64,000 nucleotides of DNA from Takashimella koratensis. Its lineage: Eukaryota; Basidiomycota; Tremellomycetes; Trichosporonales; Tetragoniomycetaceae. The notes below the pieces were generated by a model, which saw nothing but the letters and a program-made list of their open reading frames with translations, did not search any database and was not told where the DNA came from. Position 1 is the stretch's first letter. Each line of letters begins with the position of its first letter. Positions 8,604 through 62,660 of the stretch are shown here, one piece after another. The translations under genes were made by a program, and so were the position numbers. Location of the stretch: positions 868,001 through 932,000 of the forward strand of contig BCKT01000006.1 in assembly GCA_003116875.1 (NCBI GenBank), given 5' to 3'.

Positions 8604-8948
8604 CTAGAACGAGTCGAGGCTCGGTCCCAGGACATCATCCTCCAATAGCATCTGGCTATATTTGGCCGCGGAACTCGCAGTCGCATGGACTCCAGCAGCG
8701 ACCTTCACTATGCCCAATGCCTCTGGGTTTGTAGGGTCGAGAGTTTGGACAAGGCTGTCCAAGTCGGTTAGAAAGCCATTCATCGAGTCTTCCCCTTTGC
8801 TGTCACCTTTCGGCACTTTGTCACCAGATAGAAATTCTCTCATGGTGCCGGCATTCGAGGAAGCAGCTTTAAACGCTTCAATTGCGGTTTGGATCTCCTG
8901 CACCAGCGTGACCCCCGTGTCGGGGTTGGTTAGTATGCAAGTGATCAT
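8604..8948 (-). CDS. Small-paralogue family, left array copy 1 (short, no second exon found)
   Basis: Open frame of 114 residues from an ATG at 8948. Its middle (GFLTDLDSLVQTLD, then an Ala-rich helix with ASSAAKYSQMLL) lines up with the AFLTNLEDFGASIDHAI and SYASAWEYELL segments of the intact copy at 9757-10338, so I place it in the same family. It lacks the N-terminal Trp motif and stops shortly after the core, with no sign of the second exon. It may be a truncated copy, or the true 5' exon may begin further upstream. Cellular role unknown. Confidence 0.45.
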   Translation of the reverse strand: MITCILTNPDTGVTLVQEIQTAIEAFKAASSNAGTMREFLSGDKVPKGDSKGEDSMNGFLTDLDSLVQTLDPTNPEALGIVKVAAGVHATASSAAKYSQMLLEDDVLGPSLDSF

Positions 8949-9051
8949 TGGTTTGCGATGAGTGGGGGACAGATCCAGTTCGAGCTGTAGCTATTCATAC
9001 GTTCGGGGATCACGCATACGTGCTCACAGGGAGTAATAAGGAGCGCGACAA

Positions 9052-9469
9052 TCAAGGGAGCGAGCTTGTTTCAGCAACTCGATCCTTTCCAGCTTTCTCC
9101 TTTCCACAGTGATATTGATTGCCGCTAATTGGTTGTAGATATCGAAAGGAGTCAGGGAGCTTACCCACATAACGTGTTGCCGCAAGTGGAAGGCCACATA
9201 AAACAAGAAGGCCTCGGTCCAAGGCCTTCAACAAGTGGACGGGCTGGAACGCAAAGTGACGGGTCAAGGTGATGGACGATCAGGCTACCAATCCTGGCAA
9301 ATAACCGAATTTCCCTCGCCCCCTGGTCTTGCGCAAGGTGGATGACACCGAGTACGGCAACAAAGTGTAAACGCCACCCATGTCCTTCAGTCTTGGACCG
9401 CATCTTCTCGAGCCCTACGAGCGTTGGTAGGAACCCACAACGTTGCACTCTTTTAGCATAATTCTCCAT
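9052..9469 (-). pseudogene. Small gene with a degenerate MYND-like end, possibly a remnant
   Basis: Exons 9469..9165 and 9124..9052, joined in phase 2 across a 40-nt intron (GTAAGC donor, TTAG acceptor), would encode 125 residues. The middle (GWRLHFVAVLGVIHLAQDQG) reads like an armadillo/leucine-rich helix. The end (CGNTLCG, then NQYHCGKE) resembles a MYND zinc finger that has lost several Cys/His positions. MYND-finger proteins with helical N-termini are common in basidiomycetes, so this may be a truncated and decayed member. It lies between copies of the small-paralogue family but looks unrelated to them. Confidence 0.35.
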
Positions 9470-9756
9470 ATCCTCCTTTTGAAGGGAGATCGAACGGAGG
9501 TGTTACGCAGGGTAGTCAGTGGACTGGTCCGCAGGCAGCAAGTGAACGCTGGGTCGTGTGAGTGTATGGGATTGAGCGTACAGCTCCGCTGTCACGGGTA
9601 ATAAAAGCCTCAGGCTATCCACTCTTGCTGTGATCTGCCACGAGGTTTGATAACCATGCATGACCTATAGCTTACGTAACTCCTCTACGCCCGACCCAGC
9701 AGCCCCACGAAACGAGCTTGATAAGTCCCACACCTCTGGCTTGAGCCCCTAGCAGA

Positions 9757-10338
9757 CTATTCTGTAGTCGCCGTGTCTCTGAGAAGTTTCTGGGCCTTGC
9801 TAACGAACTCTGTGTACTTTGACTCCTTGATGGCCTTGGACCAGTCATAGTCGCTGGCTAGTTTCTGAAACTTGGCTTTATCGTCTTCCAGGCCCTCAAC
9901 CTTTGTCTGCTCGCCAAGCTGGAGCAGTGAATTGCCAACAACCAAAGTGGCTCTGCACGCGTTATTAATATTGCCCGATCCGTTCACTCACGTTTGCCTC
10001 AACTCATCGTCCATTGCTTGTCTGACCATGTCCAATCCCCATATGAGGTTGGAGATCGAAGCGTGGTTGTCTCTGTCTGGCAGAAGTTCGTATTCCCAAG
10101 CGCTGGCGTATGACTCTAGAGAACACACTGCACCAGGGGTAAGCTCGCCATTATTCGCCGTGATAGCATGGTCGATGGAGGCTCCAAAATCCTCCAGATT
10201 GGTCAAGAAGGCCTTCTGTGCCGAGGACTGTGACTTGCTGGCGCTCTTGCCAACTGTCTTTGCAGTAGACGAGATCGTTCTCCACCAATCTTCCTCAGGC
10301 TTGATGTCGATCAAACAAAAGACTAGGAATGGGTCCAT
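9757..10338 (-). CDS. Small-paralogue family, left array copy 2 (intact)
   Basis: Exons 10338..9992 and 9952..9757 (phase-2 intron of 39 nt, GTGAGT donor, TGCAG acceptor) give 180 residues. Residues 14-20 hold the family's N-terminal motif (EEDWWRT); the helical core follows (AFLTNLEDFGASIDHAI, then a Leu/Ala helix around SYASAWEYELL). The second exon opens with ATLVVGNSLLQLGEQ, almost shared with the copies at 10877 and 12262, and ends in a charged helix (WSKAIKESKYTEFVSKAQKL). There is no signal peptide or membrane segment, so it is probably intracellular. Function unknown. Confidence 0.75.
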
Positions 10339-10420
10339 GTTCGTAGAGTAGCGTCGAGGTGGAAGAGGGGATGTAGGCAAGTCTGATGTCTTATAGTGTG
10401 CGCAAACCCTTTGCTTACCT

Positions 10421-10505
10421 CGGGAGTAAGTTCAAAGATCAAAGGAGTCGTTTGGGAGGCGGTCGAGTCTGTCTGCCTCGGTAGGAAATGAGATCCCTTA
10501 TAATG
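10421..10505 (-). promoter_or_regulatory. Upstream block shared by two array copies
   Basis: This segment upstream of the 9757-10338 gene and the segment 11570..11650 upstream of the 10877-11481 copy share CGGGAGTAA, then GATCAA(A/G)GGAGTC, then GATCCCTT(G)ATAA in the same order and similar spacing. The shared order indicates duplication of the promoter together with the coding unit. Shorter matches to the GGGAGTAA / CAAGGGAG words lie near 9030..9060 and 14070. Confidence 0.55.
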
Positions 10506-12261: not shown

Positions 12262-12913
12262 TTAGCAAGAGATGTCGTGTTCGTCTCTCGGTGCCGTGAA
12301 TTGGGCAAATATTGTATACAGGCTCTCCTCTGAGTCGTACTCCCATCCCTCGCTCTGGCAGACGGTGAAGAAAGCGGCAAATAGAGGCACGGTTGGGTAT
12401 TTCGGCTGCAAGAGATTTGACGATGCCGTATTCCTCTTCTCACCAATGAGCCGATTGATGGTTGCCCTCTCGCCCTCCTGACCTGTCACTTCATGGGCTT
12501 GACCTATAGTGACAATCGAGTCACCGATGAACAACGTGGCACTGTGGACGTTTCAGTACTGGTCCCTCAGGCTACACCTACGCGTCAAGTATTTCCTGGG
12601 GCTTGGCGATAATCAGCGTCATCAAGCAAAGAGAGAGCATCTTAAGAGGGAGGTAAGAGCTGCTGGTCTTTTCCAGTTGGAAGCGATACCTATCGGAAGA
12701 ATCGGAAAGCTTGCGCAACGAAGCAGTAGAGACTTTCGTAGGGTGTTCCGGCAGCGATTCTCCAAACTCTTTGAGGTCGTGGAAGAATCGCGTTTTCTCG
12801 GTCGGACTGTTTACGAGTGAGTTCAGTCCACTGCTGATCGACGAGGTTGCAGAGACGAGAGCGTCCCTGACTTCTTTGTCGATGGGAACGTCGATGTACT
12901 CGGGATAGGACAT
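12262..12913 (-). CDS. Small-paralogue family, left array copy 4 (intact)
   Basis: Exons 12913..12582 and 12541..12262 (40-nt phase-2 intron, GTAGGT donor, CCACAG acceptor) encode 203 residues. The N-terminus is acidic (MSYPEYIDVPIDKEVRDAL) and replaces the usual Trp motif. The core TRFFHDLKEFGESL matches FFNTLKEFGGDV of the 13295 copy and RLKEFGESV of the 10877 copy. Exon 2 begins ATLFIGDSIVTIGQ, the family's conserved opening, and continues with a charged helix and a Trp/Tyr-rich end. No membrane segment is evident. Function unknown. Confidence 0.7.
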
Positions 12914-13294: not shown

Positions 13295-14004
13295 CTAATT
13301 GCGATGACGACCCAACACCAACACAGTCAGCACCCCAGCCGAAAGTGCTACAAGCGTCGCGATAGTGTCTGGCAGTTGTTCTCGGATGGCACCCAGAGTG
13401 GAAGGTTGCGTCGGCGCTTGCCGAGCGCTTTCGCTTGCTCTCTCCGTCGTGCGGCACGAATACCACTCTTCTTTCCAGAGTTTATCGAAATCGGTTATCA
13501 AAGCTTTGGCAGACTCGATACCTTCCAGCTCACCAAGCATTCCGATTGACTGTCCAGCCATGAGTAGGTGACTAGATGTTAGCCAAGTTTGAGTGCTCCC
13601 GCTTACAGTCGTTTCCCCACCTGGGTCGCATCCTCTGATTTGCCGTGGAACCAATCCATGGAAGTTCTTAGGCTCTTTAACGCCGTACCCAAGACGCTGA
13701 CTTTGTCAAGGACGGTGCTTTCGTCGAACTTGGGGTCGTACTGGTTTTGGGACCAGTAGTCCTTGCTGTCTTGACCCAATTTCGCGAATGCTTCCCGGGA
13801 AAGCTCACATGGAGAGTTTGACAGCGCTGTATGCACGTCTCCACCAAATTCCTTGAGAGTGTTGAAAAAGTTTCGCTTGGCAAAATGAGTCTGGTCAGTA
13901 AACTTTGAGATCTGCAAAGTGCTATTCGACGTAGCTACGTCGGCAAGAGCCTTCCATTGAGACTCCTCAGGTTTAAGATCGAGAGTGATGAGCTGGGTGG
14001 ACAT
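13295..14004 (-). CDS. Small-paralogue family, left array copy 5 (intact, C-terminal membrane segment)
   Basis: Exons 14004..13607 and 13571..13295, phase-2 intron of 35 nt (GTAAGC donor, CTAAC branch, TCTAG acceptor), 224 residues. N-terminal motif KPEESQWKALADVA; core RNFFNTLKEFGGDVHTALSN, then AFAKLGQDSKDYW. Exon 2 opens HLLMAGQSIGMLGEL, the family start, and ends with a hydrophobic segment (TIATLVALSAGVLTVLVLG) and a short basic tail, which predicts a C-terminal membrane anchor. This copy aligns best with the right-array copy at 56812 (W..., F....F....AL, AF......KD) and therefore links the two arrays. Confidence 0.75.
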
Positions 14005-17273: not shown

Positions 17274-20200
17274 ATGTCGTTCACACTGCACGATCGTGAG
17301 TGAAGCCATCATCCGGACTCGACACCGTACTGACTCGCTAGCCTCCAAACCGATCCACATCCCCACGGCCGAGCACAATGTGCTCGAGTTCTGGCGGGAG
17401 ATTGACGCCTTCAAGCAGTCTCAAAAGCTGTCCGAGGGCCGACCCGAGTACAGCTTCTTCGACGGTCCGCCTTTTGCCACCGGCAAGCCTCACTACGGCC
17501 ACTTGCTCGCGGGTACCATCAAAGTGAGCATGACTCGGAGCAGCGCTGACCCCTAGGACATTGTCACACGTCACGCCCACTCGACCGGTCACCACGTCGA
17601 GCGTCGTTTCGGATGGGATACGCACGGCTTGCCTGTCGAGCACGAGATTGACAAACAGCTCAACATCAAGGGCAAGGACGATGTCATGGCTATGGGTATC
17701 GACAAGTACAACGCCGCCTGCCGAGAGATTGTCATGCGTTACTCGAACGAGTGGAAGAGCACTGTCGAGCGAATGGGTCGATGGATTGATTTTGAGACGG
17801 GTTACAAGACCCTCGACCCGACGTTCATGGAGAGCGTCTGGTGGGTCTTTGGTCAGCTTTGGGAGAAAGGTCAGGTTTATCGCGGTTTGAGGGTTATGCC
17901 TTACTCGACTGGTTGCACTACCCCGCTGAGTAACTTTGAGGCCGGCGAGGACTACCGCATGACCTCGGACCCTGCTGGTGAGTAGTCTGGTGAGATGAGG
18001 CTGACAACAGTGACCGTTGCCTTCCCGCTTGTTGACGACCCGTCGACATCTCTTCTCGCCTGGACGACCACGCCGTACACTCTCCCTTCCAACTTGGCGC
18101 TCTGTGTTCACCCCGAGTTCACCTACGTCAAGATCCACGACTTTGAGCGGGATCAAAACTTTATCCTCCTCGAGAGCTTGCTGGGTACCATCTACAAGGA
18201 TCATGCCAAGAAGCCCGATGCGAAGAAAGCCGAGAAGAAGGACAAGGAGCCCAAGGAGCCCCAAGAGCCCAAGTTCAAGAAGATTGGCAGCTTTGTCGGC
18301 AAGGACATGGTCGGCTGGCGATACACCCCAATGTTTGACCACTTTACCGAGCAATTTGAGGACCGTGCCTTCCGAGTCTTGTCCGATACCTATGTTACCG
18401 ACTCGTCGGGTACCGGTATCGTTCACCAGGCGCCAGCGTTTGGTGAGGATGACCACCGCATTTCCGTTGCGCACGGCGTTGTTAGGGACGACGAGATCCC
18501 GCCTTGCCCGATCGACGAGGCCGGCAGGTTCACCGACGAGGTACCCGAGTACAAGGGTCTGCACGTCAAGGAGGCCGACGCGGTCGTCATCAAGGACCTC
18601 CAGAAGAAGGGGCGACTGATCATGCGTAACGAGATTGTCCACAGCTACCCATTCTGCTGGCGCTCGGGTACCCCGCTCATCTACCGTGCTATCCCTTCGT
18701 GGTTTGTCCGTGTCGCCAAGCTCTCCGAGCAGCTGGTCGAGAACAACGAAAAGACCCTCTGGTGAGTAGATACTAGTGTGAAGCTGAAAGCAGGGTTCCG
18801 GCTCACGTTGGCGAGGGCCGATTCGGCCAGTGGCTCAAGAACGCTCGTGACTGGAACATTTCGCGGAATCGCTACTGGGGAACGCCCATCCCCCTCTGGG
18901 TCAGCGAGGACTACGAGGAGGTGAGTACAAGTGTGAGCCTTCTAACCTCAGGTCGTCTGCATCAGCTCCATCGAACAACTCGAGAAGCTCTCCGGCGTCC
19001 AGGGGATCAAGGACTTGCATCGCGAGAGCATCGACCAGATCACCATCCCGTCTCAACAGGGCAAGGGTGTGCTCCGAAGGATTGAAGAGGTCTTTGACTG
19101 CTGGTTCGAGTCGGGCAGGTGAGTACCGCTAAAAGGCTTTGCTGACCACAGCATGCCATACGCTCAATCACACTACCCCTTTGAGAATGTTGAAAAGTTC
19201 AACAAGACCTATCCTGCCGACTTTGTCTCCGAGGGTATCGACCAGACCCGCGGATGGTTTTACACCCTTCTCGTTCTCGGGACCCACCTCTTCCAGACCG
19301 CACCGTGGAAGAACCTCATCGTCACTGGTCTCGTCCTCGCGGCGGACGGGAAGAAGATGAGTAAAAAATTGAAAAACTACCCGGACCCAATGGAGGTTGT
19401 GGAAAAGTACGGAGCCGACAGTGTTCGATTGTTCCTCATCAACTCACCCGTTGTCCGAGCCGACAACTTGAGGTTCCGTGAAGACGGTGTCAAGGAGGTC
19501 CTCGCTACAGTTATTCTCAAGTGGATCAACTCGCTCAACTTTTACCTCAACCAGGTCGAGCTGTACCAGCAGTCGACCGGGAGCAAGTTTGTCTACGATC
19601 ATGACGCGCCGAAATCGGCAAACGTCTTTGACCGATGGATCCTTGCTCGATGCCAGAGTCTCATCCAGCTCGTCAGTGACGAAATGTCCGGTGGGTACTA
19701 TTCTCATCACCGCTAACCCCAGCATACCGCCTGTACACGGTCATTCCGCGATTGCTCGAGCTCATCTCCGACTTGACCAACTGGTACATTCGCTTCAACC
19801 GGAAGCGTCTCAAGGGAGAAGGCGGTGTTGAGGACACCCTTGCGGCGCTCAACACGCTGTACGAGGTTTTGCTTACCCTCTGTCTCACCATGGTGGGTTG
19901 TCAGTACTGCCCTTGCTAACATTAGTCCTCGTTCACGCCGTTCACCTCGGAAATGGTGTACCAAAGCTTGCGAGCGACCACGCCAGCATCCAAGACTGAC
20001 GAGGATGTTCGCTCCGTCCACTTCCTCGCTTTCCCCTCGGTCCGCAAGGAGTACTTTGACCCGGTTATCGAGCGACAGGTGCAGCGCCTCAAGGCGGTCA
20101 TCGACCTCGGCCGTGTCATCCGTGACAAGCGCACCCTCAAGGTCAAAGTGGGTTTGGAGCCAGGGATTTGGCTAACCCTTAGATGCCGCTCAAGGAACTC

Positions 20201-25636: not shown

Positions 25637-28600
25637 ATGGCGCAAACGTCGACGCTATTTCGCCTCCCACCTCTGTCCGAGGACGCGTTCAACCTCTCTA
25701 TCGATTCCCGGCCTATCGTATCCGTTGAAGCCAAGTTTGCCCTCCCACCACTTGACGAGCATGCCTCTGGCACTGAGCGGCTCTTAAGCGACTTTGGCAA
25801 GTTCTCACTCTACACCGATTTGAAGAGACCCGCCGAGGTTCCGCAGGTGGACGGCAGGGAGGAGATCGATGGTGGTTTGGAGGATGAGGTGGAGGGTATA
25901 GACGGGGTCTGGGAGGAAGTAGGAGATGAGAATGCAGAAGCGGGGCCTAGTAGACCCACAAAGCTGTTCGAGGTGAGTGCTAAGAAAAGAGATAGCTAAT
26001 GGCAGCCTGTGAGGACATGGGACAAGGATGACGAGCCTGTTGGGTTCCTCTCTGAACAGCCTGCTGTCTTTGAAGCACTAATCACGAAGTACGTCTCCTT
26101 TTCTCACTGGTACCTAGCTAACTGTGAAACCTACTCAGAGCCGACCCACCGCTCACTCTCCCTCGACTACGAACGACCGCCGTCGTCCCTACTCGCGACG
26201 TGAAGAGCCTGCTGACCCTCCTCGTCCGCTCAACAACAGGAACAGTAACGACTGACGCTCTGCGGTGGAGCTCGAGAGAAGGGAGGTTGGTGTATGCGGA
26301 AGAAAAGGGGAGGTTGCAGGGTGTTGCCAGGGGTACGGCCGTTTCGTGAGTAACTAGAGAATGGGTCCGTTGAGGAGAGCTGATGTCCTGGTGTAGGTCT
26401 ATTGCCACGCTGTTGGAGGTCGGGACGGCGGTACGGAGACTAGAGATCATCGTCGACACTCATTCGTCTACGTAAGTGCATCGCAGCTCTGTGGAATCGC
26501 AGGGATTGAGCTTCTGACCAATCTCGCCTCTCGCCGCAGACCCCTGACGCCAACACATCACGCAATGCTACACGCAGTCTCGACTTACCTCACATTCATT
26601 AAACAGCGGCTCACCGTCGCGATCGAAGAGAATGGCGCAGAACTCGTACCGGCATGGACGAAATGGAGTGTCGTGTTGAAGGACGTCCGCGAGCTTGCTG
26701 GGAAGCTATGCGAGGTTCTTTGTTGGGTGAGTTTCCCAGCTTCAAACACCAGCTGTCGTCCTCAAACACCAGCTGACATGACTTAGCCCCTCAACCAGGT
26801 GAAACCTTGCCACCTGCCCCCACGCGCCTCGTCCCTCCTCACCCACCTTCACGCCCACCTCCTCGCACACCTCTCCACCTCTCCCGACCTACACCACGGT
26901 CCAATCGCCCTCTCTCTCGCTTTTCTCCTACACCAATCGTCCGCTCCCTTCCTTGGGCTCCTACACCAATGGGTCGGCCTCTCCGACTCTTCTGCAATCG
27001 ACACAGACCCCGACCCGATCTCTCAACCATGGGCAGACGTCGGAGTCACTCGGACCCTTGTGCAGACCATCGCTGGGGCGGCAGTAACAGGGAGTGAAGA
27101 GGTCAAGTGGGAGTATACCTTCTCAGCGAGGAGAATGCCAGGTTTCATCCCGAAAGACGCTAGGAGGACACTCTTTGAGGCAGGCAAGAGTCTCAGAGCG
27201 TTACGTGATGCTTCAGGGGGCCTACATCCGCTTTGTTACTCTTCATGGGGGTTGAAGGGGTCTTGGGGCTGGGGAAGCGATTCAAAGGGATTGTAAGTGA
27301 TTGCGGCAACAAGTACTGACCGACAGCGAGGTTAAAGCCCACGTCCGTCGAGTTGATCGAGAGTTGGAGACTTGGCATACCACACGGTCCAACACTCGAC
27401 CTCTATCTGGGTCCTCGTCCATCTCCAGCTTACGCCTGCCCAAGAAATTGAGAAAAAGCCTACCGCCTGATTTCATCCAAGCTGCCGAACCCGCAAAAGT
27501 GAATCTACCTCCCACGATGGGCCAAGAGCTCTGGGATCTATTTGGCCAAGCGCCCGGGTCACACCTCGTCGCTTCTGGTGACTCGACACTCTGGGCGCCT
27601 ACACCTTTGGACAACTTGGAATCGTTCATCGCTCGTCATTCGGACCCTTTATCACCCCTGATCCCCGATGACAGTCCCAGTTTGCAACTGTACATCACCA
27701 ACGAGCTTCTCGCGCCTCTCCTTGCTCACTCGGAACTCATCACGCGATCCCTTGTCTCACTTTACCTCGACGACCTGGGGCTACTTGATCACCTCGATAT
27801 CCTCCGTGCGTTCTGGCTGGGCGGGGACGTCGGGTTCGCGGAGAGAGTTGGTGCCGCGCTATTTGGGAAGGATGGGGCGGGGGCGGGGGAGGCCCTAGGG
27901 ATGGGCCGACGAGCGAGGACCCGCGCGAGGCTGGGGATTGATGGAGGCCTAAGCCGGGAGAAAGAAGTAGACGGAGAGTGGGGGATAGGACTCGGTTTGG
28001 GTCTAAGTGAGAGGGCCAGTTGGCCACCGGGAGGTGCGGAGCTTGCGTACGCGCTAAGGACGACGTTGGTTGATGAGAGCGGAGGGAAAGGGGCGGCGTG
28101 GGATGGGATAGAGGATAGAGTATCGTTTGCGATCAAGGCTCTACCCGAGGATCAGAAAGATGGACGAAGAGCGAGGTGGCTGGATCCTCAAGGTGAGTCA
28201 AAAGGTTGTAACATGCTGACATTATAGCTATCGAGTGAGTTGGTTGATCACGGGGATACTGATGATTACAGAGCGCTGGATTTCTTGTACCTCGCGTATT
28301 CGCCGCCACCAGCTATAGGAATACTTCTCCCGTCGTCCATCATGGCCAAGTACCAGACGATTCTTAATCTCTTACTCCGTATCGCGCGGTGCAATCGGGT
28401 CGTCCGGTCGTTATACTGGGATACGATTCACTCGAGTCACAACGACGAGGTCAAAGTCGGTGTTGACTACCGTCCTCGGAACAGGCAGCAAACGCTGTTC
28501 AGGACCCTTCCTGAGATCGAGAGGCTCGTGCGTGGGCTCAGGTTCAGGATGACACACTTTGTCACCGCCGTCGAGCAGTACGTGATGGATACGGCAATCG

Positions 28601-29404
28601 GGACGAATTGGGATGTCATGAGAAAGAGGTTGGAGAGATTGAGAAGAAAGTCGATGGATAGTCGACCTGTTACCCCGGCTCCAGATGAGGAGGATTTCTT
28701 CGAGCTCGGTTCGGAACCCGACTACGACGGGCGTGACGGTGAAGACGGCGTGGACCTACCCGACGAGGAAGAGGACGTGGCCAAGCTTAACCAGCTCCGT
28801 TCCGTCCACTCGGTGGTATTGTACCATGGCGTCGTACTGGACCGGATCTGCCGCGCTTGCCTGCTCACCAACCACGCAGGACACCAGGTGACTTTCAAGC
28901 TCCTCATGAGCTTGTTTGGGCTGGTACTGGATCTGGGGAAATTGGTGAAGGAGGTGGAGATGGGGATGAGGGGTATGGAAGTGGAGGAAAGCGTAGAGAG
29001 GATAAGGAAGGAGTGGGATGATAAGGAGGTCGTGTTCGTGAGTACTACCGGGAGGTCAAAGTTTGTGCTAACACGTGTTTGGCTCGACTCTGCCACAGCT
29101 GCATGCACTCGAAAGGCTGTCTCTACGGACGCCTTCGAAACCGGCTGTAGCCGCGGCGATCGACGACGATGGCAGCGGAGCGGCAGGTGCCTCGAAGCGA
29201 GGAGAGAACGGAACCCAGTCTCTCCGAGAGACAGAACACGATCTGCAGATGTTGCTAGAAGGAGAGAGGGCGGAAGAGGATGAGATGGGCCCGGGGATAG
29301 TGGGAGGGAGGAGAGACGCGGGCGTGTCAGAGTTGCAAGAGTTGTTGCTGAGACTTAGGTTGGGCAAGTCGAGAGTAAGGAGGAGGGAGGAGGATGGGAT
29401 TTGA
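25637..29404 (+). CDS. Gamma-tubulin complex component, GCP5/GCP6-like (Spc97/Spc98 family)
   Basis: Subunit of the gamma-tubulin ring complex that nucleates microtubules. Exons: 25637..25972, 26006..26088, 26139..26345, 26397..26471, 26540..26726, 26787..27292, 27327..28192, 28228..28234 (7 bp), 28272..29037, 29099..29404; phases agree, 1112 residues. The GRIP2 region is recognisable by ILLPSSIMAKYQTILNLLLR, the RMTHFVTAVEQYVMDTAIG helix and YHGVVLDRICRACLLT; the N-terminal half carries the weaker GRIP1 region. An acidic insertion (PDEEEDVAKLNQL region) before the last helices and the overall divergence favour GCP5 or GCP6 over GCP2/3/4. The ATG at 25637 was preferred to an upstream TTG. The 7-bp exon is required to keep the frame. 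Confidence 0.85.
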
Positions 29405-36025: not shown

Positions 36026-39000
36026 CTAGATCCGTAACGTGATCTGGTGTAACCTCGTCACCAGTGCTAAAAGGGCGACGTTTTCTGACCCGGCGTTGCT
36101 ACAAGATGTCAGTGATCCTTTACCTGGGCCATGACCATTCACTCACTATGTCACGGCGTCGAGATGGACCTGACGGTGTCAGTTCCTCCAGGCGATCCGA
36201 CCTACCTGAGTATGGTGATTAAAGTTGATCTCAAACTTTGTCAAAATCATCCACCGATGTTCTGCCTTGACAGCGTCGGATTCAAGAACAGGATCTGCAA
36301 GGAACCTTCCCAATGCCTTGTTGAATGATTCTTGGTACGCCACGAAAGCCGACATTGTCGCCATGAGCTTTGCGTAGACCTGCGCGTCAACTTGATACAA
36401 GACCCCACGACTCACCGAAAGAAGTTTCGAGTTTGTGAGCATACACTGTTTAAGACAAGTGTCAAGGAAATCGATATGATCACGCATGAGTTGATCAACT
36501 GTCTGAACTCTTGCCAATTTACTCTCCAAACTCCTCCAATTCGATTCTAGTACCTCCCCTGTCGCATACGCCAAGACCTGTCTGACGAAAGCGAGCATTC
36601 TCGTACGAAGGGAGAAAATTCGAGTTTTCCAATTGTCCATATCTGCGTTTCCAGTGGAATTGCGCCACTGTGGCTCTTTATGTTCTAGCCACATGGAGGA
36701 AAGGGCGGATTCGAGGTGGTGTAGGTGGAGAAGGAAGCGGAAGATGAGCTGGTATCGGGTAATGGTTTTGCGTGAAATGACGAGGGAGAGTGGGAATTTG
36801 ACAGAGTAGTCAAACGCCACGGCGTCGATAGCTGCGAATTAGCGTTGTGGATAACCCATTACTCACCAACGAGAACCTTTTCCGGATCACTGCCCTTGTC
36901 CACATCAAGCGCAAAATCAAGCTCTCCATCTTCTCCAATACTCCCCGTCCGCGAGACAATCTTCATCAACCACTCATACAGGCCCTGGCTCGCCATGGTG
37001 ACCTTTAGATTATCCTTGTACGGATCGTTGGAGCTCGAACTTGCCGGGTTACGTACAGCGACATCGAGGAGAGATTGGAGCTTGACGATGGATACGGATT
37101 TGGCTGATTTCCGGGTAAGATCGTTATTCGCTAGGTCGAGAAAGTTGGTAAGAAAGTCGGACTGGTCCACGAAGAAGAAGTGTTTCATTGATCTGGACGT
37201 TAGTGTGGGGTCAAGGTGTGACTCACCGGAGATGCGGGATCAGCTCTTGTTCCTCCACAAGGAGCTTGAGCAGCGCCTTGTTGGCGTGGATATAAGCGTC
37301 CTCTATCCGCTTGTAAAACCTAAACGGTCAGTCTCGGAACCAAAGACAACCCACTTTGGCTCATTCATCACGATCATCTCATCTTCGTCCGCGTCCACGT
37401 CTCCGGGTTTCTTCACCTCGATCCCACATTCGCGAATCACGTTGAGGTATTTTCCAGCGAGGAGGATCTTGTGTTTCCACGGCTGCAGAAAGGCCGGAAT
37501 ACACGCGCCACCTGGAAGTCGGTTCGTCCCTGGTCTCGGCGGGGGTACAGCCGCTGATAACGACGGGCCCGACTTGCCTGCTCCGACTTTGGACGAGGAA
37601 GCGAGGGACGAGCCGTCGCGCAGCTATGTTGTTAGCAAATCCCTGTCGCAGTCACTTACAGTGTATCGCCGCTCCCAATACTCATCGGTATAGTCGCTTT
37701 CCAAAACTCCCTTGGTAATGTGCCCACTCTCCTTGACCATGAACTCGTCGAATGGATCGGCGAGGTTCCCCGTTGAGATCCATCGAATCAACATACGGCT
37801 ATACGGCTGGGAAGCATGCAATAGCAGTTGCGAATGGAGTGTAGTTGCCGTTGGATCTCTGACAAGTCAGCTCCTTCCCCACCTTTACTCACCCGCTCAT
37901 GGTCGCCTCTCGCTCCCCGATGATACCCAGCACCTCGCCGCCGAGAATGAGGCCTCCTCCGCCGATGAGCCCCTCCTGCGCCTTGAGGTTTTTCATGAGC
38001 CCCTTGAGACCCGCCCCACCCAAACCGAGCTCATCCGCCAACCCGCCGAGCCCGTCGTCGTCGTCTGACGCCTCGGAGGCGTCCGGATTAACCTCATCGG
38101 TCTCCAGCCCGAGGCAGAGGGAGGACAAGAGGGACATGGTGTGTAGCGTTGGGTGGAGATGGAAGTAGAGCGTTTGCAAGGTGAATGTCGAAGAGGAGAG
38201 AAAGAGGGATTCGAGCTGGGCCGTGAGAACGCGATATTCCTGGAGGGTCAGCTGTTGAACAGAGACGAGCCCACCTTGAGCATCCCGCGGATCCCGCTAC
38301 CGAGCGCGTGGCTAACCATGCCAAACTCTTGCCCGTTTCTGTTTATATCAGTCTTTTGTCGTGAAAGTACGCACCTAGACTCCATGGAAGCCTCGACGGA
38401 CGAGAAGAATGTCGCGAGGGGCAATAATCGCTCCACCAGGCTCAGCAACGACGGGTCTGTCCAGCTTAGCAGAGTTCTAGTAGAGGCACATACCAAGCGA
38501 TGCGTCGACCTTCCACTTGGCTCCCTTGAGCCTTTGATCCGTATCGAGTGGGTCGTACCCGTCCGCATAACGTATCAACGACCCCTCGACTCCCTGTACC
38601 CTTTATCAGCACACTTTTGCCCAGGCTCGCCACACTCACCTGAAGAACAAAAAGGATATCCTCGCAGACCCAAGCTTCTTGCACTTCCAGTGGCACGCCA
38701 TCTAGCAGCCTCTGCTCTACTGGTTCAGTCTGTTCGATCGTTCTCTCCACAATCTCAATCTCAACTTCGCGTTCCCTGATTTTTTCTCTCGACTTTCGAC
38801 CGTCTCTCAATCTCTCCCTCTCCCTCTCAAGCCCCTCCTTGTCTCGTTCTCGCCACTCGGGAGCCTTCCCATTCCGCATACCCGCCTCGTCTCGCTCTAG
38901 CCGCCGAGATACCATCGTTGTGACTGTTGTGCCCGATACGGACGCTGGGCGGGATGAGGAAGGGTCGGCGGTCTGGCGCGAGCCGGATCCTGAGGCGACT

Positions 39001-52062: not shown

Positions 52063-52497
52063 ATGTCCCAGTCAACTCAAATGTACGGCCTCCTTCTCAA
52101 CGGGGGCACACAGGTTGCCCCGGGCTATGGAAACCTCAAATCCTCTGCTTCCTCCCTCTTGAATCGACGTGGCTTGAAAGCATGGATGTTCGCGCACCTG
52201 ATTTCTCTCTGGCCATTGGCGGAGGGTCTGGTCCGATCGAGCCAAGGCGTCTACTTGGACGAGTGGCATCAGGGTTTTATCCACGGACTCAACACCACCA
52301 AGCTCTGGCAATCAGAGACGAGCGCTGAAAGCCTTCTCTACCGTACTTACATAGACCTTTACCCACTTCATAGAGCAGCACTCAACTGGTCAGTGCAGAA
52401 CGACATCCCCGAGAAACTTCAGAATGCTCTCGAAAGCATAGGTAGGGCGACAACAGCCTTGACCGGAACTCAGACACTCGAGCAGCGCTTGAGGTAG
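52063..52497 (+). CDS. Small-paralogue family, right array copy 1
   Basis: ATG at 52063; 144 residues if the frame runs to the TAG at 52495..52497, or a splice at 52493 (GTAGGT donor) leads to a very short exon. Its second half matches the 53249 gene over about 70 residues: F(I/L)..L..T.LW...T(S/T)AE(S/N)LL, then ...LE.......RL(K/R) at the same phase-2 donor. Residues 35-60 contain Trp-rich helices (LKAWMFAHLISLWPLAEGL). Exon 2 seems truncated compared with its neighbour. A possible minus-strand gene overlaps its end. Confidence 0.6.
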   Translation: MSQSTQMYGLLLNGGTQVAPGYGNLKSSASSLLNRRGLKAWMFAHLISLWPLAEGLVRSSQGVYLDEWHQGFIHGLNTTKLWQSETSAESLLYRTYIDLYPLHRAALNWSVQNDIPEKLQNALESIGRATTALTGTQTLEQRLR

Positions 52498-53248: not shown

Positions 53249-53935
53249 ATGCTCAAGTTTGGCGAGATCCCCAACATCCTCCCCGCCAGCCTCCTCCCTG
53301 CCAACATCCTGCCCACCGTTGGCCGCTCATTCACCAAATACTTTCCCAAACCCCTCATCTTCACCTCTCCTTCCGCCCCAACGACCCCTGCAGCCCCAGC
53401 GGAACCTACTGCCCCTGCTCCACCACCTACGAAGTACCCCCAGTACATTAGTCTCCTGCGCCTTGGACCCACTGTCCACATCCTCGTCGAGACTGGCCGT
53501 TCATGTACCCTCTGCCCTTGCGACCCGACTTTCCTCGATGCCCTCGCCAACACTTACCTCTGGGACATGGATACGACCGCCGAAAACTTGCTCAACCTCC
53601 CTACTGACAAATTCACCGGTCTCTACGCCGCGACGGAAGGGTTCCTCGCTCGACGGGATATCTCGGAACAGGTACGAGAGGCGTTACACCTGCTGAACGA
53701 GAGTATCAAGTCGGTAGCGGCTTTGGAGGGCGAGGAGAAGCGGTTGAAGTGAGTAACAAGGGAGAGGGGTGACTGACTGGTCAGCAACTTTGAACAGATG
53801 CGGTACGCGCTATGGAGTCTGTACTCCCACCTTGCGCAAGAGGAGAGAGCGGCTCAGGAGGCCTTGGCTGCTGCTGAGGCGGCAGAGGCAGCCGCGGCGG
53901 TGGCGGCGGAGAAGGAGAAAGCTAGCAATGCATAG
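53249..53935 (+). CDS. Small-paralogue family, right array copy 2
   Basis: Exons 53249..53748 and 53785..53935 (36-nt phase-2 intron, GTGAGT donor, CTGACTGGTCAG acceptor), 216 residues. N-terminal 45 residues are hydrophobic and amphipathic (ILPASLLPANILPTVGRSF), followed by a Pro/Ala linker. The conserved part (FLDALANTYLWDMDTTAENL, then a helix to EGEEKRLK) is shared with the 52063 gene. Exon 2 starts FEQMRYALWSLYSHLAQEE and ends in a long Ala/Glu helix. The N-terminus could be a weak membrane or organelle signal. Function unknown. Confidence 0.7.
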
Positions 53936-54502: not shown

Positions 54503-55127
54503 ATGGCAGACTCTGTGGAACTATATCGTGCAAACGATCCGTTTGTGAAAGTCGACAACACGAAATTCTTGGAGAAACTGTCGATGACTTTGGGCGTTAT
54601 CTCATCCGATTACACGTATCAGGGGACACCTTTTACGGCAGCTCAGATCATGACTTCGGAAGTAGTGACAACGATGCAAGCCCTGACTAAGGAGGCTAAG
54701 TCAGCACTCAAGCGTAGCAGTTGTTCACTGAACAAACAGCCTATAACGGACCTGGTAGCGTGCCTGAGGCAGTATTCCGAGACGCTTAGCGATGCGCCCA
54801 AACTGAAGCAAAGTGTTGACCATCTGGCCCACTTCCTTGAGATGTCAAAGACAGATGCGTCTGAGCTGTACGTTCTTGCGAGTGAAACTATAGCCTAGGG
54901 CATGCCGCTGACAAGTAGGGCTCAGGATGCTGTCATTGAGTATTCAATCCGCCCAAACGTTTCTGAGGACTCATCTCAAGAAATACAATCTTCAGGGAAC
55001 TGACTACATCGAAGTCCCACCAGGCGATGAAGAAGAGGACGGCCGGCCAACTATACGCAGAAGGGACCCATCTTGTTTTGAGCCAATGACAACTTTTTTG
55101 GCAGGAGGCTTTCCGCAAGTTGGGTGA
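54503..55127 (+). CDS. Small-paralogue family, right array copy 3
   Basis: Exons 54503..54867 and 54926..55127 (58-nt phase-2 intron, GTACGT donor, CTGAC branch, CTCAG acceptor), 188 residues. Exon 1 has the family layout: a polar start, a central helix (AQIMTSEVVTTMQALTKEA) and a Leu-rich helix (LVACLRQYSETLSDAP). Exon 2 opens with a helix (SIQSAQTFLRTHLKKYNL), followed by an acidic loop (VPPGDEEEDGRP) and a Phe-rich end without a clear membrane segment. An alternative acceptor seven bases upstream would give a shorter tail in another frame; I preferred the longer one. Confidence 0.6.
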
Positions 55128-55840: not shown

Positions 55841-56457
55841 ATGTCAAACTCGGCAGGATTAATCGGCCTCTCTGAAGCTGAGGATTTCTGGAAGGCAGCT
55901 TCGGCCACGTTGACCGGTATAGGTTCGCTCAAGCCCCCGTGGTCGGACAAGTCTCAAATTGGAGTAGCAGTAATAGAGGCGATCGATAGGAGCCAAGAAA
56001 TCGGGGCATCGGTGACGGAGGCACTCCGGACTAGCTCGGTGCGGCTCTCTACAACGCCAGTGCTGAGCCTCTCCTCTTCCTTGCGGCAGTATGCTCTTTC
56101 GTCCAACGAAGACCCCGAAACGGTGGACCCGTTCAATAAGCTAGCAAGCCAGCTAGAAATGCTGGCGAGAGGGAAGTCAAATGTTGAAGAAGCGATCTGG
56201 TGAATTTCATTGGCCCGTGAGAGCTGTAAGAGTTAGCTGACGACGCACCATCCAGGGCCGATACAATCAACACAGACGCGCTTCAAATTCTAAATGAGAG
56301 ACTGGCGTCTTTGAGCGAGAAGAAGACATCGTTCAAAACCACAGACATAGCTAAATGGTTGCTAGGGCAAACCGCTGCCCGGGTCTTCCTGGGGTTGGTC
56401 GTTACAGCAGCTGTGAGCGATGCAGTTTGGGGGCCGTCTAACCTTGGCTGCCCTTAA
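55841..56457 (+). CDS. Small-paralogue family, right array copy 4 (membrane-anchored)
   Basis: Exons 55841..56199 and 56256..56457; the intron splits the Trp codon TG|G; 186 residues. N-terminal motif LSEAEDFWKAASATL fits the family's Trp motif; the core includes IEAIDRSQEIGASVTEALR and LSSSLRQYALSS. Exon 2 begins ADTINTDALQILNERLASL and ends in a hydrophobic segment (ARVFLGLVVTAAVSDAVWG), predicting a C-terminal anchor. Its size and junction are nearly the same as in the 56812 copy. Confidence 0.72.
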
Positions 56458-56811: not shown

Positions 56812-57424
56812 ATGTCAAACGACGATCTAAATTCAGACCACGGTCTCAAAATAGACCTATCAGAGAGCGCAGCGGATTGGAAAGATGCTTACGAGAAGAT
56901 TGACAGCATGTGCACGGTGGAAAACCAGCGAAACCTGAGTCTGTACCCACCTTTTGGGTGGGACTCGACTTTTGTCGCTTCATGTCAGTCTTTCAGCAAT
57001 GCCATTTGTGAAGCTTTGGCTCTGAACCCTCCTCTGCTTGCTATGTCGGCTTTCGAGGAATTTGCGACAGCCGCTAAAGACTTTGCCACCCGATTGAGAG
57101 CACAGAATCTCCCCGAAAACTCAGGTATCATCACAGAGCTTGAGAAAGCGGATACAGATCTCTCTGCCGTCTCCAAGCTGTCTTCAGAGGATGAAGTTTG
57201 GTGAGTAACGCGGATACGCTAGACCTGACACCTCTTCCAGGGCCTACAGTCTTGTTAGCGGAACTATTGAGCGTCTTACCGATCAGCAGGTGAAGGACCG
57301 CACCAAACAATTGGAGAAGAGGGATGCTGCTGTCAAGGACATGGAAACGATCGTGACGAGCATGGGTGTGGTCGCTACTGCCAGTGTTCTGATGGCAGTC
57401 AACAATATCTTGAACCTTTTGTAA
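56812..57424 (+). CDS. Small-paralogue family, right array copy 5 (membrane-anchored)
   Basis: Exons 56812..57200 and 57241..57424 (40-nt phase-2 intron splitting TG|G), 190 residues. N-terminal motif ESAADWKDAYEKIDSM; core FVASCQSFSNAICEALAL, then FEEFATAAKDFATRLRAQN and a Glu/Leu helix. Exon 2: AYSLVSGTIERLTDQQVKDR, a charged helix, and the hydrophobic end MGVVATASVLMAVNNILNLL. This copy gives the clearest bridge to the left array: W, F....F....AL and AF......KD align with the copy at 13295-14004. Probably an intracellular tail-anchored protein; role unknown. Confidence 0.75.
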
Positions 57425-57857: not shown

Positions 57858-58550
57858 TTGGGCGCAGCGAGCCAGTCGCTGCGACAAGGGGGTTCCACGC
57901 CCGAGCCCCACAGATCAGTGCCTAGCAGGAGTTCGCCAATCGGCGCCACCGAGCCAACGGCCCCGCAAGGCATTCTCTCATCGCAGACATCTGGAGCTGT
58001 CAATCTCTCGAACCATATCCCCATTTCTTGGCGACCGACCAATTGCCTCTCGGATGAGGCAGCAAGAGCCATCCTCAACCCTGCCGAGATGGAATCCATT
58101 GGCGAATGTCCCGAATTTGGATCACAACTCGCCTCGGGAAAGGACATTGTCAGGAACGGTGAAGCCATCCCACCCTTGCTCGTCAACGATATCCAAGTAT
58201 CGTTTGACAAGAGGCACCCGTGTCTGCTCACGGGCGCCCAATATCTCGCGGATGCACGGGGCGGCCACCCCTTGCTCAAAGCCTTCGTCGACTTCATCGT
58301 ACCGACGCTCAAACGTCACGGAACAGCAGATCAAATCTACGGGTTTGGTCAGTTGTTCCGCACCGGCGGATTGAAGAACGGGAAGCGCAAGGATGGGACG
58401 GGATTTGAGGGGGGAGCGGGAATGAAGATGGTGAGGGTGAAGCTGGGCGAGATTAGGAAGGGAGGAGATGCGGTTGTGAAAACCAAAATTGACGCTGTTG
58501 TCAAGTCATTGGGAGCGAAATACGCCTCGCACATTGGTTGGTCTGGTTGA
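57858..58550 (+). CDS. Uncharacterised protein, 5' end unresolved
   Basis: Open frame of 230 codons to a TGA at 58548..58550. The frame opens with TTG; the first ATG lies near 58089 (MESIGECPEFGSQL), so either the protein is about 154 residues or upstream exon(s) are missing. The sequence looks like a folded domain: LLVNDIQVSFDKRHPCLLTG, then HPLLKAFVDFIVPTLKRHG and a Gly/Lys-rich loop. Preference for C-ending codons supports coding. It does not resemble the small-paralogue family between whose copies it lies. I recognise no family. Confidence 0.5.
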   Translation: MGAASQSLRQGGSTPEPHRSVPSRSSPIGATEPTAPQGILSSQTSGAVNLSNHIPISWRPTNCLSDEAARAILNPAEMESIGECPEFGSQLASGKDIVRNGEAIPPLLVNDIQVSFDKRHPCLLTGAQYLADARGGHPLLKAFVDFIVPTLKRHGTADQIYGFGQLFRTGGLKNGKRKDGTGFEGGAGMKMVRVKLGEIRKGGDAVVKTKIDAVVKSLGAKYASHIGWSG

Positions 58551-59491
58551 ATAGTGTGTTGTATTCTTTGTGGGGCCCTTTCTGCGTGTATAAACCGCTA
58601 TTTTTCTGGCTTCTTCTTTCTATGTATGACATACTCAGGTGTTCCCAATCGTACACCTTTTGCCCAGCTTTCATCTTTTTTCGACAACGGGGTGGCGGAA
58701 GGAGTGGTGTCATAGCGCCACTATCTCGTTATTTGATAACGAACTGTGCCAAGCCATCAGACGAAGCGGATATATCGTAACCCGTGGACAGATAGTTGCC
58801 TCTTGAATAAATTAACCTATCAGAGGGCAAACGCTACTGTACCGCTACCACAGGGGGCTTCTTGGATCGCCGCGCTTCGCTCAGCCGCTGCGGCGGGTTT
58901 GGATGGAGCGCCTGAGTAAAGCCTGCCGTTGATACAGATCTGATACGTGTCGGGCTCGATGTCGATATCCAAGCTCTTGAGTATGATCAGCTCTCCCCAC
59001 CAACAAGCCAAAATGTGCCTTCCAGATCTCGGTGAAAGGATGAAAGCGACAGGTTGGGGGTGTTTCTCGTCAGTCAAGAGATTTTTCCAGGGTGGAGACT
59101 GATTCGCTCGGTCGAAGTCCACCTTGGCCGTCCGCCGACGCCTTCAACCCTTTTGGAAGACGATTCCCTGGCGCGAGGTGCTGCAGAGCACGCAATGGGG
59201 TCACGGAGTCTCCGTGAACGTGTTAGAAAGTGCTTTCGCGACTCTCAGAGAAAGGAGGAAAGCGACAAGGTGGAAGCTGTCTCTTGTCAAGCTGTTTCTT
59301 GTCGCTCAACGGAACGTTCCTACGTCATCAAGTGATTAGGCGGCACCACAATTGTCTTGGACGAGGTCAGAAAGCCCCCCCCCCCCCCCCACCGCCCTCA
59401 AAATGTTAGTACCACAACAACAACCAGCCCGACGCCAGCCACCGCCGTCTTGACCATCCATACGACACTTTGAGTACAATCAAGACCAATC
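58551..59491. other. Spacer with a partial copy of the array promoter
   Basis: Positions 59030..59060 (GTGAAAGGATGAAAGCGACAGG) resemble the AAAGGA-GAAAGCGACA part of the block at 59220..59300, so an older partial duplicate may lie here. A C run occupies 59375..59390, about 100 bp upstream of the next start. A minus-strand open frame (58820..59122, 100 codons) has no clear support. Confidence 0.4.
59220..59335 (+). promoter_or_regulatory. Duplicated upstream block, first of three
   Basis: Contains TGTTAGAAAGTGCTTTCGCG, CTCTCAGAGAAAGGAGGAAA, GCGACAAGGTGGAAGCTGT and a CAACGGA..TTCCTAC..CATCAAG end. The same words in the same order occur at 60493..60590 upstream of the next copy, and a decayed version (TGCTAGAAAGCGCT, GGATGCAAGCGAC) at 61800..61850 upstream of the third. 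Confidence 0.7.
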
Positions 59492-60135
59492 ATGAGCCCC
59501 GCTGCCTCAAGCTTCAACCCGGAAGCCCGACTTTCTCTCGAGGGGTTCGAGGACCAGTGGCGAGAGATCTACTATCAGCTCTCGCTCATCGGCAGAATCG
59601 AACTCGACCGCGAAAGCAGCCCCTTCGCTTCCTCGTCTGTACCCGAATACAAAGATCTCCTCGCTTCTTGCGACGCATTGCGTGACGCCATCCTCATATC
59701 TCTCGAGAGAAAACGGCCTCTCCCCAAGGATTTGCTCGAGCGCGTCAGCGCCGCAACAAGGGCGTACGCGGAGACTCTCCGGGGCTCATCCAACCACACT
59801 GGCGCTAGACTCGAAAGTCTGGAAGCGGCAGTGACAAGCTTTGCTCTGGCAGCAACGGGCGAGTCGTGAGTGGTATCGGAATGTATCTAACTTGAGGCTG
59901 ATTCTTCGGCTCTAGAGCTCACAAGCTTACTCAGGCAGGTGTTAACTCCCTTGCTGTACATCGAGTCCTGACTCACGTCGAGGATTCGGCCCACTACCAA
60001 GCCACTGAACAGGCGCGTGCGGCATACCTGAGGGAAAACCCTGTCGGCTTCGTCGCCGAGGCTGTGACTCAGGCTTTGACTGAATTTGTGACCGACTTTG
60101 TTACCAAACTCTCCGGTTTCTTTGGTGGAACCTAG
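59492..60135 (+). CDS. Small-paralogue family, right array copy 6 (intact)
   Basis: Exons 59492..59865 and 59916..60135 (50-nt phase-2 intron, GTGAGT donor, CTGATTCTTCGGCTCTAG end), 197 residues. N-terminal motif LEGFEDQWREIYYQLSLI; core YKDLLASCDALRDAILISLE, then an Ala-rich helix. Exon 2 opens AHKLTQAGVNSLAVHRVL and ends with an amphipathic rather than fully hydrophobic helix (VTQALTEFVTDFVTKLSGFF). Its promoter and 3' region are duplicated with the next copy, so the unit is a recent tandem duplication. Function unknown. Confidence 0.72.
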
Positions 60136-60729
60136 TACTTCGGCATTGTCGGTAGCTGCTCAGTACAGTTCTAGTACTACAGTACCAACTCACACACCGT
60201 GGAAGGTTTCCAGTTTGACAGAGGATCGGTTTGATTGTGATGACAAACTAGCATTGCTTGCCAGCGGCTCTAGCTTGGAGACGTCAACGGCAAGGTTTTT
60301 TTTGAGGAGCCATGCACACCATCCTCGCTTTTGGTACAGAGCGAACTTTTCCCTAGGCTGCTATGGTGGCAACCCTCTCAGTGCCACCTCACCGCCCCAC
60401 CGGTCTTTCCCGCGTTCCCATACCCTCTTTCTCCCCCTCGAAGCCGAACTCAACGCGGCGTGACGGTTTGGAGCAATGCATCTGGGCGAACATGCTAGAA
60501 AGTGCTTTCCCGCCTCTCAAAGAAAGGATAAAGCGACAGGGTGGAGCTGTTTCTTAAAGATCAACGGAGATTCCTACCTCATCAAAGTAGCTTAACAGCT
60601 CCATGTGTGGTTTGGGCTAAAGCCTTCCCCTCACCGCCAAGAGTTTCTTACTGCAACAACCACATCCACCGGTCCCCAGGCCAACAACTCGATCGTCACC
60701 ACATATCCTCGAGCAAACCAAGACCAATC
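60136..60729. other. Spacer: duplicated 3' segment plus duplicated promoter block
   Basis: 60205..60300 (GGTTTCCAGTTTGACAGAGG, TTGCTTGCCA, CTAGCTTGGAG) matches 61399..61480 downstream of the next copy (GAGTTCCAGTTTGAAAGAGG, TTGCTTGCCA, CTAGCTTGGAG). 60493..60590 matches the promoter block at 59220..59335. Together these define a tandem repeat unit of about 1.2 kb. Confidence 0.7.
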
Positions 60730-61342
60730 ATGGAGACCATTGCTTCGACTTCAGACACCAAGGCCGGTCTCGATCTCTCGGGATCTAAAGCGAGGTGGGA
60801 AGCAATACACAGCGACCTCACAAAACTCTGCAACATCAACGACATTCGCTCGCAAATTCCCCACCCGCCCTACCCGTGGATTTCTGGCTTCATCAAGTCT
60901 TGCGAAGACTTCCACACAGCGAATCGCAGCTCGCTTGACTCCAAGCAACCACTTTCATGGACCCAAATCAGGCTCTTCGGGAAGGCGGCAAGAGACTTCG
61001 CGGGGGTATTGGGTCATCCGGGCCTTACTACCGAGCCCAAGCTCCAAGCTGTCCTGGACGCGACAGCCGACGCATTCGAGGAAGCGTCAACAAGAGACTC
61101 CAAGGAGTGAGAGCAATCATGATATCTCGACATGTGGCTACTCTTCGTACCACAGGGCCGTCCTTCTCGTCGAAAAAACTCTCCTCACTCTTTGCACGAA
61201 ACATGCGGACGATTGAGATGAACAGGTGAAAACTTGGGGAAAGGCTGTCGAGGCGGATCCTGTCAACAGGCTGACAGGGTTTGCCACTGCTGTATTGACC
61301 AAGTTGAAGGAGGAAGTGTCCCGCATCTTTGGAGAGCCCTGA
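60730..61342 (+). pseudogene. Small-paralogue family, right array copy 7, in-frame TGA in exon 2
   Basis: Exons 60730..61106 and 61156 onward (49-nt phase-2 intron, GTGAGA donor, CCACAG acceptor). Exon 1 is intact: GLDLSGSKARWEAIHSDL, then FIKSCEDFHTANRSSLD and FGKAARDFAGVLG. Exon 2 (AVLLVEKTLLTLCTKHADD) meets a TGA at 61214..61216, giving 145 residues. The same frame then stays open for 41 codons to 61342, and that part (WGKAVEADPVNRLTGFATAV ending SRIFGEP) matches the C-terminus of copy 6. So this is a single nonsense change in an otherwise preserved gene, a readthrough site, or a sequence error. Confidence 0.65.
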
Positions 61343-62031
61343 TTGCACTCCAAAGTCGGTAGCTACACATTACTTTCTGCAGCAGTAGCCATCCGTACAG
61401 TTTGAAGAGTTCCAGTTTGAAAGAGGGTCGTTTGATTCCGATGCCAGGTTTATTTGCTTGCCAAACACTAGCTTGGAGGCAGACAGAGGCAAGGAAGGGT
61501 CTTCTCACTATCCCCTGAACCGTCTCCAAGCTACGATCCTGGTCTTCAGGCTTGTTCGCATTCACCCAGACTGCCCTCTGGGTATCACGTCACTGCTCCC
61601 CTGCGCTATCCCCCCCTCCTTAGGCGAGCCCCCACCCTCAACACTGACCGTCATTCCCCAACTCTTTGCCCAGAACCGACCCACAAGGCCTTGAGAGCAG
61701 GTGACAAGCTCCGGCCGGTTGACAACTCGAGGCGCCTTCTGAAGCCAACATATTGTGGCATCTGGGGCAATGTGCATGCCTACTACGTCATGACAAACGT
61801 GCTAGAAAGCGCTCCACAGCTTGGACTGAAAGGATGCAAGCGACGATCGGTCGGTCGCCTTGGCCGTTCAAAGGAGAGAAGGCTACGTCATGAAGTCAGC
61901 AAGCAGCAATGGTTGGTGTGGGATTTGAAAGCTCACCCTCCTCTCCCCACCTTAGCTCCTCCTTCTCCCCAACCACCGACTCTCTCCAGCCCAGTCTGGA
62001 CCAAATCGCCTTGAGTTGAACCATACCCATC
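61343..62031. other. Spacer with duplicated 3' and promoter segments
   Basis: 61399..61480 is the second copy of the 3' segment at 60205..60300. 61800..61850 is the most divergent copy of the array promoter block. No gene seen. Confidence 0.6.
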
Positions 62032-62660
62032 ATGTCGACTCGAGCCGACTCTGACCTCTCCCGCAGCATCGACGTTACTGAGGAACGAGGCGAGATGAGC
62101 AAGCGCGGATGGGAGGAGCTTTACAAAGAGATTCAAGAGCTTTCCAACACCAACGACCCACCCGTTCAGAACTTTTGCTACCGTACCGATGATACATTTC
62201 GCTCGGAATGCGTCAAGCTATCCAAGTCCATTCACGATGCTCTCAACTCTTCTTCTCATTTGGTCCCAGTGTCCTGCTTTACACAATTCTCGACCGCCGC
62301 GGCCGACTTTGCGAGACGTCTACGTCGGACCGTCCATGAACATCGTCAGGACACCTATCTGATCAATGACCTGAACGCCGCCGCCTCCGAGCTTTCCCGT
62401 GTGACGTACCTGGACGACCCCGAGTGAGTAATAATGTGACCATTGTAGTACGTCCCTAACACAACCAATACAGCGTCTACTGCGCTGCTCGAGAAGCTAT
62501 CGGCATTCTCAGACACCGACAGGAGCTGGACTTTGTGGTCGCTGAGGCGTAGGCGAAGGGCGGGACCAGGAAGGAGATCCTGTCGGCGATTGGCTTGGTC
62601 GTTGGTGTTGCTGCGGCTACCGAGCTCTTGAGCATGATCAACTCTTCCTCGACCAATTGA
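62032..62660 (+). pseudogene. Small-paralogue family, right array copy 8, in-frame TAG in exon 2
   Basis: Exons 62032..62423 and 62474 onward (50-nt phase-2 intron, GTGAGT donor, CTAACACAACCAATACAG end). N-terminal motif MSKRGWEELYKEIQELS; core FRSECVKLSKSIHDALNSSS, then FTQFSTAAADFARRLRR. Exon 2 (VYCAAREAIGILRHRQELDF) meets TAG at 62550..62552, giving 156 residues. The frame continues open for 35 codons to a TGA at 62658..62660 and encodes a hydrophobic helix (EILSAIGLVVGVAAATELL) like the anchors of copies 4 and 5. The stop therefore removes just the predicted membrane anchor. Confidence 0.65.

Follow-up and report, generated by a model that had tools for sequence, protein, structure and literature searches.

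The stretch analysed here (the window: 64,000 nucleotides of Takashimella koratensis, C6:868001-932000 in an assembly of 25.1 Mb and 24 contigs) holds two arrays of small genes on either side of a core of conserved genes, and sequence comparison supports ten of these genes, distributed over both arrays, as copies of one real protein family. We refer to the left-array copies, on the minus strand, as L2 to L5 and to the right-array copies, on the plus strand, as R3 to R8. The arrays face outward, the left copies pointing left and the right copies pointing right. Between them, Pfam matches identify a kinesin motor, an acetolactate synthase, a zinc-binding dehydrogenase and a gamma-tubulin-complex C-terminal piece; the acetolactate synthase has its closest counterpart in Cryptotrichosporon argae (88% identity, 87% of the query), followed by Kwoniella and Cryptococcus, which makes the host a tremellomycete yeast that probably stands near Cryptotrichosporon.

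Gene models with one intron each were obtained for nine copies (L2, L4, L5 and R3 to R8). In the list below, lengths are in amino acids (aa), KD19 is the 19-residue mean hydropathy, for which at least 1.6 was required of a hydrophobic segment, and the leave-one-out expectation value (E) is that of a model of eight exon-1 products searched against 2191 open reading frames (ORFs) from the window and 40 kb of flank.

L2, 9757..10338, minus strand: exon 1 9992-10338, phase-2 intron 9953-9991, exon 2 to the stop at 9757; 180 aa; leave-one-out E = 1.3e-5
L3, 10877..11469, minus strand: looks damaged, with exon-1 similarity divided between two frames; exon 2 48% identical to that of L2 (63 aa)
L4, 12262..12913, minus strand: exon 1 12582-12913, phase-2 intron 12542-12581, then exon 2; 203 aa; the most diverged copy
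L5, 13295..14004, minus strand: exon 1 13607-14004, phase-2 intron 13572-13606; 224 aa; exon 2 end strongly hydrophobic; leave-one-out E = 1.2e-12
R3, 54503..55003, plus strand: intron 54868-54918, short proposed exon 2; 149 aa; without hydrophobic tail; leave-one-out E = 7.5e-6
R4, 55841..56457, plus strand: intron 56200-56255; 186 aa; hydrophobic segment close to the C-terminal end; leave-one-out E = 9.6e-12
R5, 56812..57424, plus strand: intron 57201-57240; 190 aa; hydrophobic C-terminus; leave-one-out E = 1.4e-15; exon-1 structure modelled
R6, 59492..60135, plus strand: intron 59866-59915; 197 aa; KD19 0.94, tail not strongly hydrophobic; leave-one-out E = 1.8e-7
R7, 60730..61342, plus strand: exon 1 intact, exon 2 with an internal stop; 145 aa to the first stop; leave-one-out E = 2.9e-10
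R8, 62032..62660, plus strand: exon 1 intact, exon 2 with an internal stop (156 aa up to the first one) and a hydrophobic segment beyond it; leave-one-out E = 4.8e-11

Exon 2 of R3 is our own proposal and has a weak donor. At the places where a preliminary description of this DNA had put these nine modelled copies, the first exons are indeed open, with 111-133 codons and no stop; the reference sequences used for exon 1 include one intron base in some copies.

The leave-one-out profiles recovered eight of the nine copies at E ≤ 1.3e-5. The ninth, L4, reached E = 0.62 with exon 1 only; with exon 2 included, it was matched to R3, R4, L5 and L2 at a probability of 79.5, and none of 100 shuffled queries did as well. 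R3, L2 and R6 each beat all 100 shuffles too, R3 at a probability of just 18.7. L3, which entered none of the models, was matched in two pieces lying in different reading frames (E = 7.5e-8 and 5.6e-4), and the best match to the family model in the 40 kb of flank had E = 0.33. Aligned, the nine exon-1 products yield the consensus I-D-L ... W ... F ... F ... AL ... L ... YA..L. A tryptophan stands before helix 1 in seven of the nine, in keeping with the N-terminal tryptophan that the preliminary description had noticed in most copies. That description had also made its superfamily depend on an alignment better than one of shuffled sequences, and the alignment proved far better.

Homology extends from one array to the other. 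A profile of the right array matched a profile of the left one at a probability of 88.8, as against 0.4 for the best of 60 column-shuffled controls, in a comparison whose two profiles stem from a single window and whose controls were shuffled from the left alignment alone. Single copies carry this signal to very different degrees: a model built from right copies found L5 at 6.3e-6, a piece of L3 at 0.0078 and L2 at 0.074, and did not find L4, while a model built from left copies found R4, which among the right copies stands nearest to the left array, at 9.7e-7 and no other right copy. By these comparisons, the link between the arrays is uneven and is carried mainly by R4, L5 and the profiles.

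A further shared character is the phase-2 intron, which had been claimed to lie at the same place and does so in all nine modelled copies (35-56 bases, behind the fourth predicted helix). The motif CTRAY occurs 8-30 bases before the intron end in seven of 11 introns (those of the ten family copies and R2, the L3 intron being entered one base too long and having no motif there), against a shuffle mean of 1.0 and with seven reached in none of 2000 shuffles; the R3 intron holds CTGAC. This excess fits genes that were spliced. Beyond the intron, the start of exon 2 is a stretch common to L2, L3, L4 and L5 and weaker in R4. Toward its end, a C-terminal hydrophobic segment is present in R4 (1.67), R5 (1.65) and L5 (2.21), that is, in three of the seven copies with an uninterrupted exon 2, and was not found at KD19 ≥ 1.6 in the other four (R3, R6, L2 and L4); in R8 such a segment (1.97) lies behind the stop codon, and the highest KD19 of L4 (1.58) is located in exon 1. 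At the other end of the protein, KD19 is at most 0.75 over residues 1-44 in all nine copies, which agrees with the earlier statement that no signal peptide is present, as judged by hydropathy, with no dedicated signal-peptide predictor run; on the same grounds, the proteins do not look like secreted effectors.

The exon-1 domain is predicted to consist of four helices, with one strand before helix 1 and another between helices 2 and 3. Two models were compared, one from a nine-row alignment with R5 first and one from four left-array rows with L5 first, and both gave the same order of helices and strands; three left rows are common to the two alignments, and the comparison is one of element order, the coordinates not being superposed. 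Structures that differ between copies, which would have spoken against a single family, were accordingly not seen in R5 and L5, at modest model confidence. Comparison with known folds returned generic four-helix matches only, and S23-type (2rld), Avd and copper-storage four-helix proteins are among the structural matches of both models.

Known relatives were sought by several routes, and the earlier statement that the genes belong to no known family was borne out: there was no significant match in Pfam, PDB or a large protein database and no strong hit to a known domain, the Pfam searches with hmmscan covering ten exon-1 queries (nine of the main family and R2; E ≤ 5) and six spliced proteins together with R1 (E ≤ 1). 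Genome searches with exon 1 of R5, L2, R4, L5 and R7 and with exon 2 of L2 returned only copies in the window, with one exception; a match on C12 (E = 0.87, with a stop) was taken as chance. Within the limited sensitivity of these searches, the family was detected at one locus.

Three of the ten copies are interrupted and look damaged, L3 being split between frames and R7 and R8 having a stop inside exon 2. In an unrooted tree of nine of the ten members (L3 left out), in which one of six inner branches is well supported, the well-supported branch (98/97) separates R5 to R8 from R3, R4 and the left copies, and a single group of all right copies, at 71/81, is possible. A contrast between coding and flanking sequence concerns R6 and R7, which are 46% identical in exon 1 and 43% in exon 2, as compared with 83% in an upstream stretch, 74% in a 95-base downstream block and 55-57% in other flanking sequence. 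Against R8, the upstream stretch falls to 56-57% and the 3' flank to 38-44%, with exons at 43-46%; the gapped unit alignment gives unrelated DNA some identity, and values near 50% mean little. The contrast is mainly a matter of R6 and R7, and the claim that the copies diverge fast stands only in part: the exons of this pair have changed more than some of their flanking sequence, the effect is weak against R8, and positive selection is not shown. The upstream stretch is an element with further copies:

Upstream element of R6, 59209..59285, plus strand: copies at about 60481-60555 (upstream of R7, 83-86%) and at 59002-59067 (78% to the R7 copy)

A weaker copy precedes R8 (56-57%), and the element was detected at this locus only in a search of the genome. 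One reading of the R6/R7 pattern is conserved regulation with faster exons, and another is homogenised flanks. Ahead of the element copy at 59002-59067, 29 bases on the plus strand (58969-58997) match the end of R8 exon 2 at 86%. Together, the two pieces may be what is left of a further copy between R5 and R6; support for it at the protein level was not found. Between the same two copies, a 230-codon ORF (57858-58550, plus strand) has no Pfam match at E ≤ 0.01.

The preliminary description had counted about 13 copies in one superfamily. What stands of this is the homology, within and between the arrays, of ten members (L2 to L5 and R3 to R8); the number is lower, since the copies placed at 8604 and 11888 went undetected at E ≤ 50, and those at 52063 and 53249 gave a probability of at most 0.6 against both array profiles. 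The latter two, which we call R1 and R2, belong to another small family:

R1, 52063..52494, plus strand: exon-1 ORF, in a separate two-member family with R2
R2, 53249..53749, plus strand: exon 1, paired with R1; allows a model with a short phase-2 intron (53749-53784)

R1 and R2 are similar to each other (E = 1.5e-5) and, on this similarity, constitute a separate two-member orphan family beside the right array. A very remote link to the main family may exist, because they have the same orientation and R2 can take a short phase-2 intron. When the genome was searched with R1, the only matches were R1 and R2.

The explanation that we consider somewhat probable is birth and death within a lineage-specific family whose products are intracellular four-helix proteins, some of them with a hydrophobic tail. 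Such a family would grow by tandem duplication and lose copies by decay, and each uninterrupted gene model would give an intracellular protein of 149-224 residues in which exon 1 encodes the predicted four-helix domain and exon 2 a helical tail, the latter holding a putative membrane-type hydrophobic segment in R4, R5 and L5 (and behind the stop in R8). The proteins may serve as helical modules for binding, some of them at a membrane, and their sequence turnover may reflect a diversification of binding partners. Both arrays may derive from one ancestral array split by inversion of the core of about 38 kb, an event that would give the outward-facing layout. The favoured explanation draws on the homology of the copies, the shared intron with its branch-point motif, the element order common to both structure models, the coding constraint, the detection at one locus, the interruptions in L3, R7 and R8, the partly better conserved flanks of R6 and R7 and the R5 to R8 group of the tree. 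A recognition or conflict role is our first functional guess and a rather unlikely one; its plausibility comes from the resemblance to recognition and conflict genes, which typically undergo tandem birth and death while their exons change. Decidedly improbable is the most novel version, in which tremellomycete yeasts would possess a hitherto undescribed class of intracellular proteins for recognition or conflict, with four helices, changing C-terminal tails (soluble or membrane-anchored), diversification in tandem arrays and a shared upstream element, that would serve self/non-self recognition, antiviral defence or a killer-type selfish system.

Several observations weigh against this birth-and-death explanation or narrow it, and some of them favour an ordinary lineage-specific family under weak constraint and with no conflict role, its copies drifting and decaying under little selection, which we regard as quite possible, if short of probable. 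The functional part of the favoured explanation is something that we infer, and a membrane role is not general, as three of seven tails are hydrophobic. The two structure models have mean predicted local distance difference test (pLDDT) values of 69.7 and 65.1 and predicted template modelling scores of 0.59 and 0.56, a modest confidence, and in the L5 model the first strand falls within a stretch below pLDDT 50. Each exon-1 genome query found one or two of the other nine members, L4 being found by none, so that equally diverged members elsewhere would be missed. The share of interrupted copies suits the weak-constraint family, as does the lack of any significant Pfam match, defence-related or other; any single interruption could also be explained by sequencing error. 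The GC content at third codon positions, 0.50-0.65 in the family and 0.65-0.76 in four core ORFs (two of which, 17995-18765 and 28240-29283, were named by inspection and not by a Pfam match), points the same way, the lower value fitting weak expression. The pairwise codon analysis covers the 11 of 36 pairs with more than 20% identity. None of them has a nonsynonymous rate (dN) above the synonymous rate (dS); codon position 3 differs most in ten of the 11, the exception being R3-R4 (dN 1.01, dS 1.39), and dS is undefined or above 2.2 in ten. These pairs indicate constraint at the protein level and no sign of positive selection, which again agrees with a family that is not diversifying under selection. 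What speaks against drift with little selection is that an open exon 1 has been kept in nine of the ten copies even though dS is mostly saturated, and that the upstream element is 83-86% identical between R6 and R7, which suggests maintained expression.

Other known systems account for the arrays less well. A HeLo/HELL/MLKL-type set of four-helix cell-death executioners, as used in fungal self/non-self recognition, shares with the family a predicted helical bundle and, for HeLo and HELL, a fungal origin. PMC12881547 describes HeLo-type domains as acting via the extreme N-terminal helix. In the present family, the N-terminus is not strongly hydrophobic in any of the nine copies by the hydropathy measure given above, and the hydrophobic part is C-terminal in some copies; moreover, no HeLo row appeared in the hmmscan searches, and a frame-by-frame search of the genome for PF14479 gave no match at E ≤ 0.01. 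We regard this identity as very unlikely; HeLo-type domains are the nearest by kind, and the family is not filed there. Tail-anchored membrane proteins are a general class that R4, R5 and L5 resemble in that a hydrophobic segment lies close to their C-terminus, with none at the N-terminal end, and from which the four uninterrupted models without such a tail differ. Remains of mobile elements or virus-derived genes would also be multi-copy, partly interrupted and devoid of detectable relatives, as is the case here; the shared spliced intron with its branch-point motif, the detection of members and upstream element at one locus only, the lack of any R5 relative in viral contigs and the lack of a Foldseek match to viral proteins at E ≤ 0.001 leave this an extremely slim chance. 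Mating-type-linked recognition genes come to mind at first sight, as a tandem of diverged genes close to conserved ones looks like a mating region, and have next to no likelihood: STE3-type receptor matches lie on C2 and C15 and the sole homeodomain match (Homeobox_KN) on C2, 26 kb from STE3, while the window is on C6 and neither a homeodomain nor STE3 was found at the array locus.

Lineage-specific tandem families are well known as a kind, and orphan gene families are common in fungi, many of them resting on single unverified ORFs. What homology, splicing signals, predicted fold and interrupted copies jointly establish here is a real family with a defined anatomy, to which the databases searched gave no significant match. 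It offers a concrete target: were population data to show that selection on it is balancing or diversifying, it would provide a lead to systems of recognition or defence in basidiomycete yeasts.

Two minor observations concern other genes. The STE3-type and homeodomain matches lie at C2:2043636-2044573, C2:2070774 and C15:465003-468970; their spacing on C2 suggests linked mating loci, and the STE3 matches on C15 form two groups separated by about 3 kb, which may represent two more receptors. Within the core, the gamma-tubulin-complex C-terminal family is represented on opposite strands by the ORFs 27301-28227 (plus strand, below the cut-off) and 36179-36820 (minus strand), which are perhaps two different gamma-tubulin-complex members in one region.

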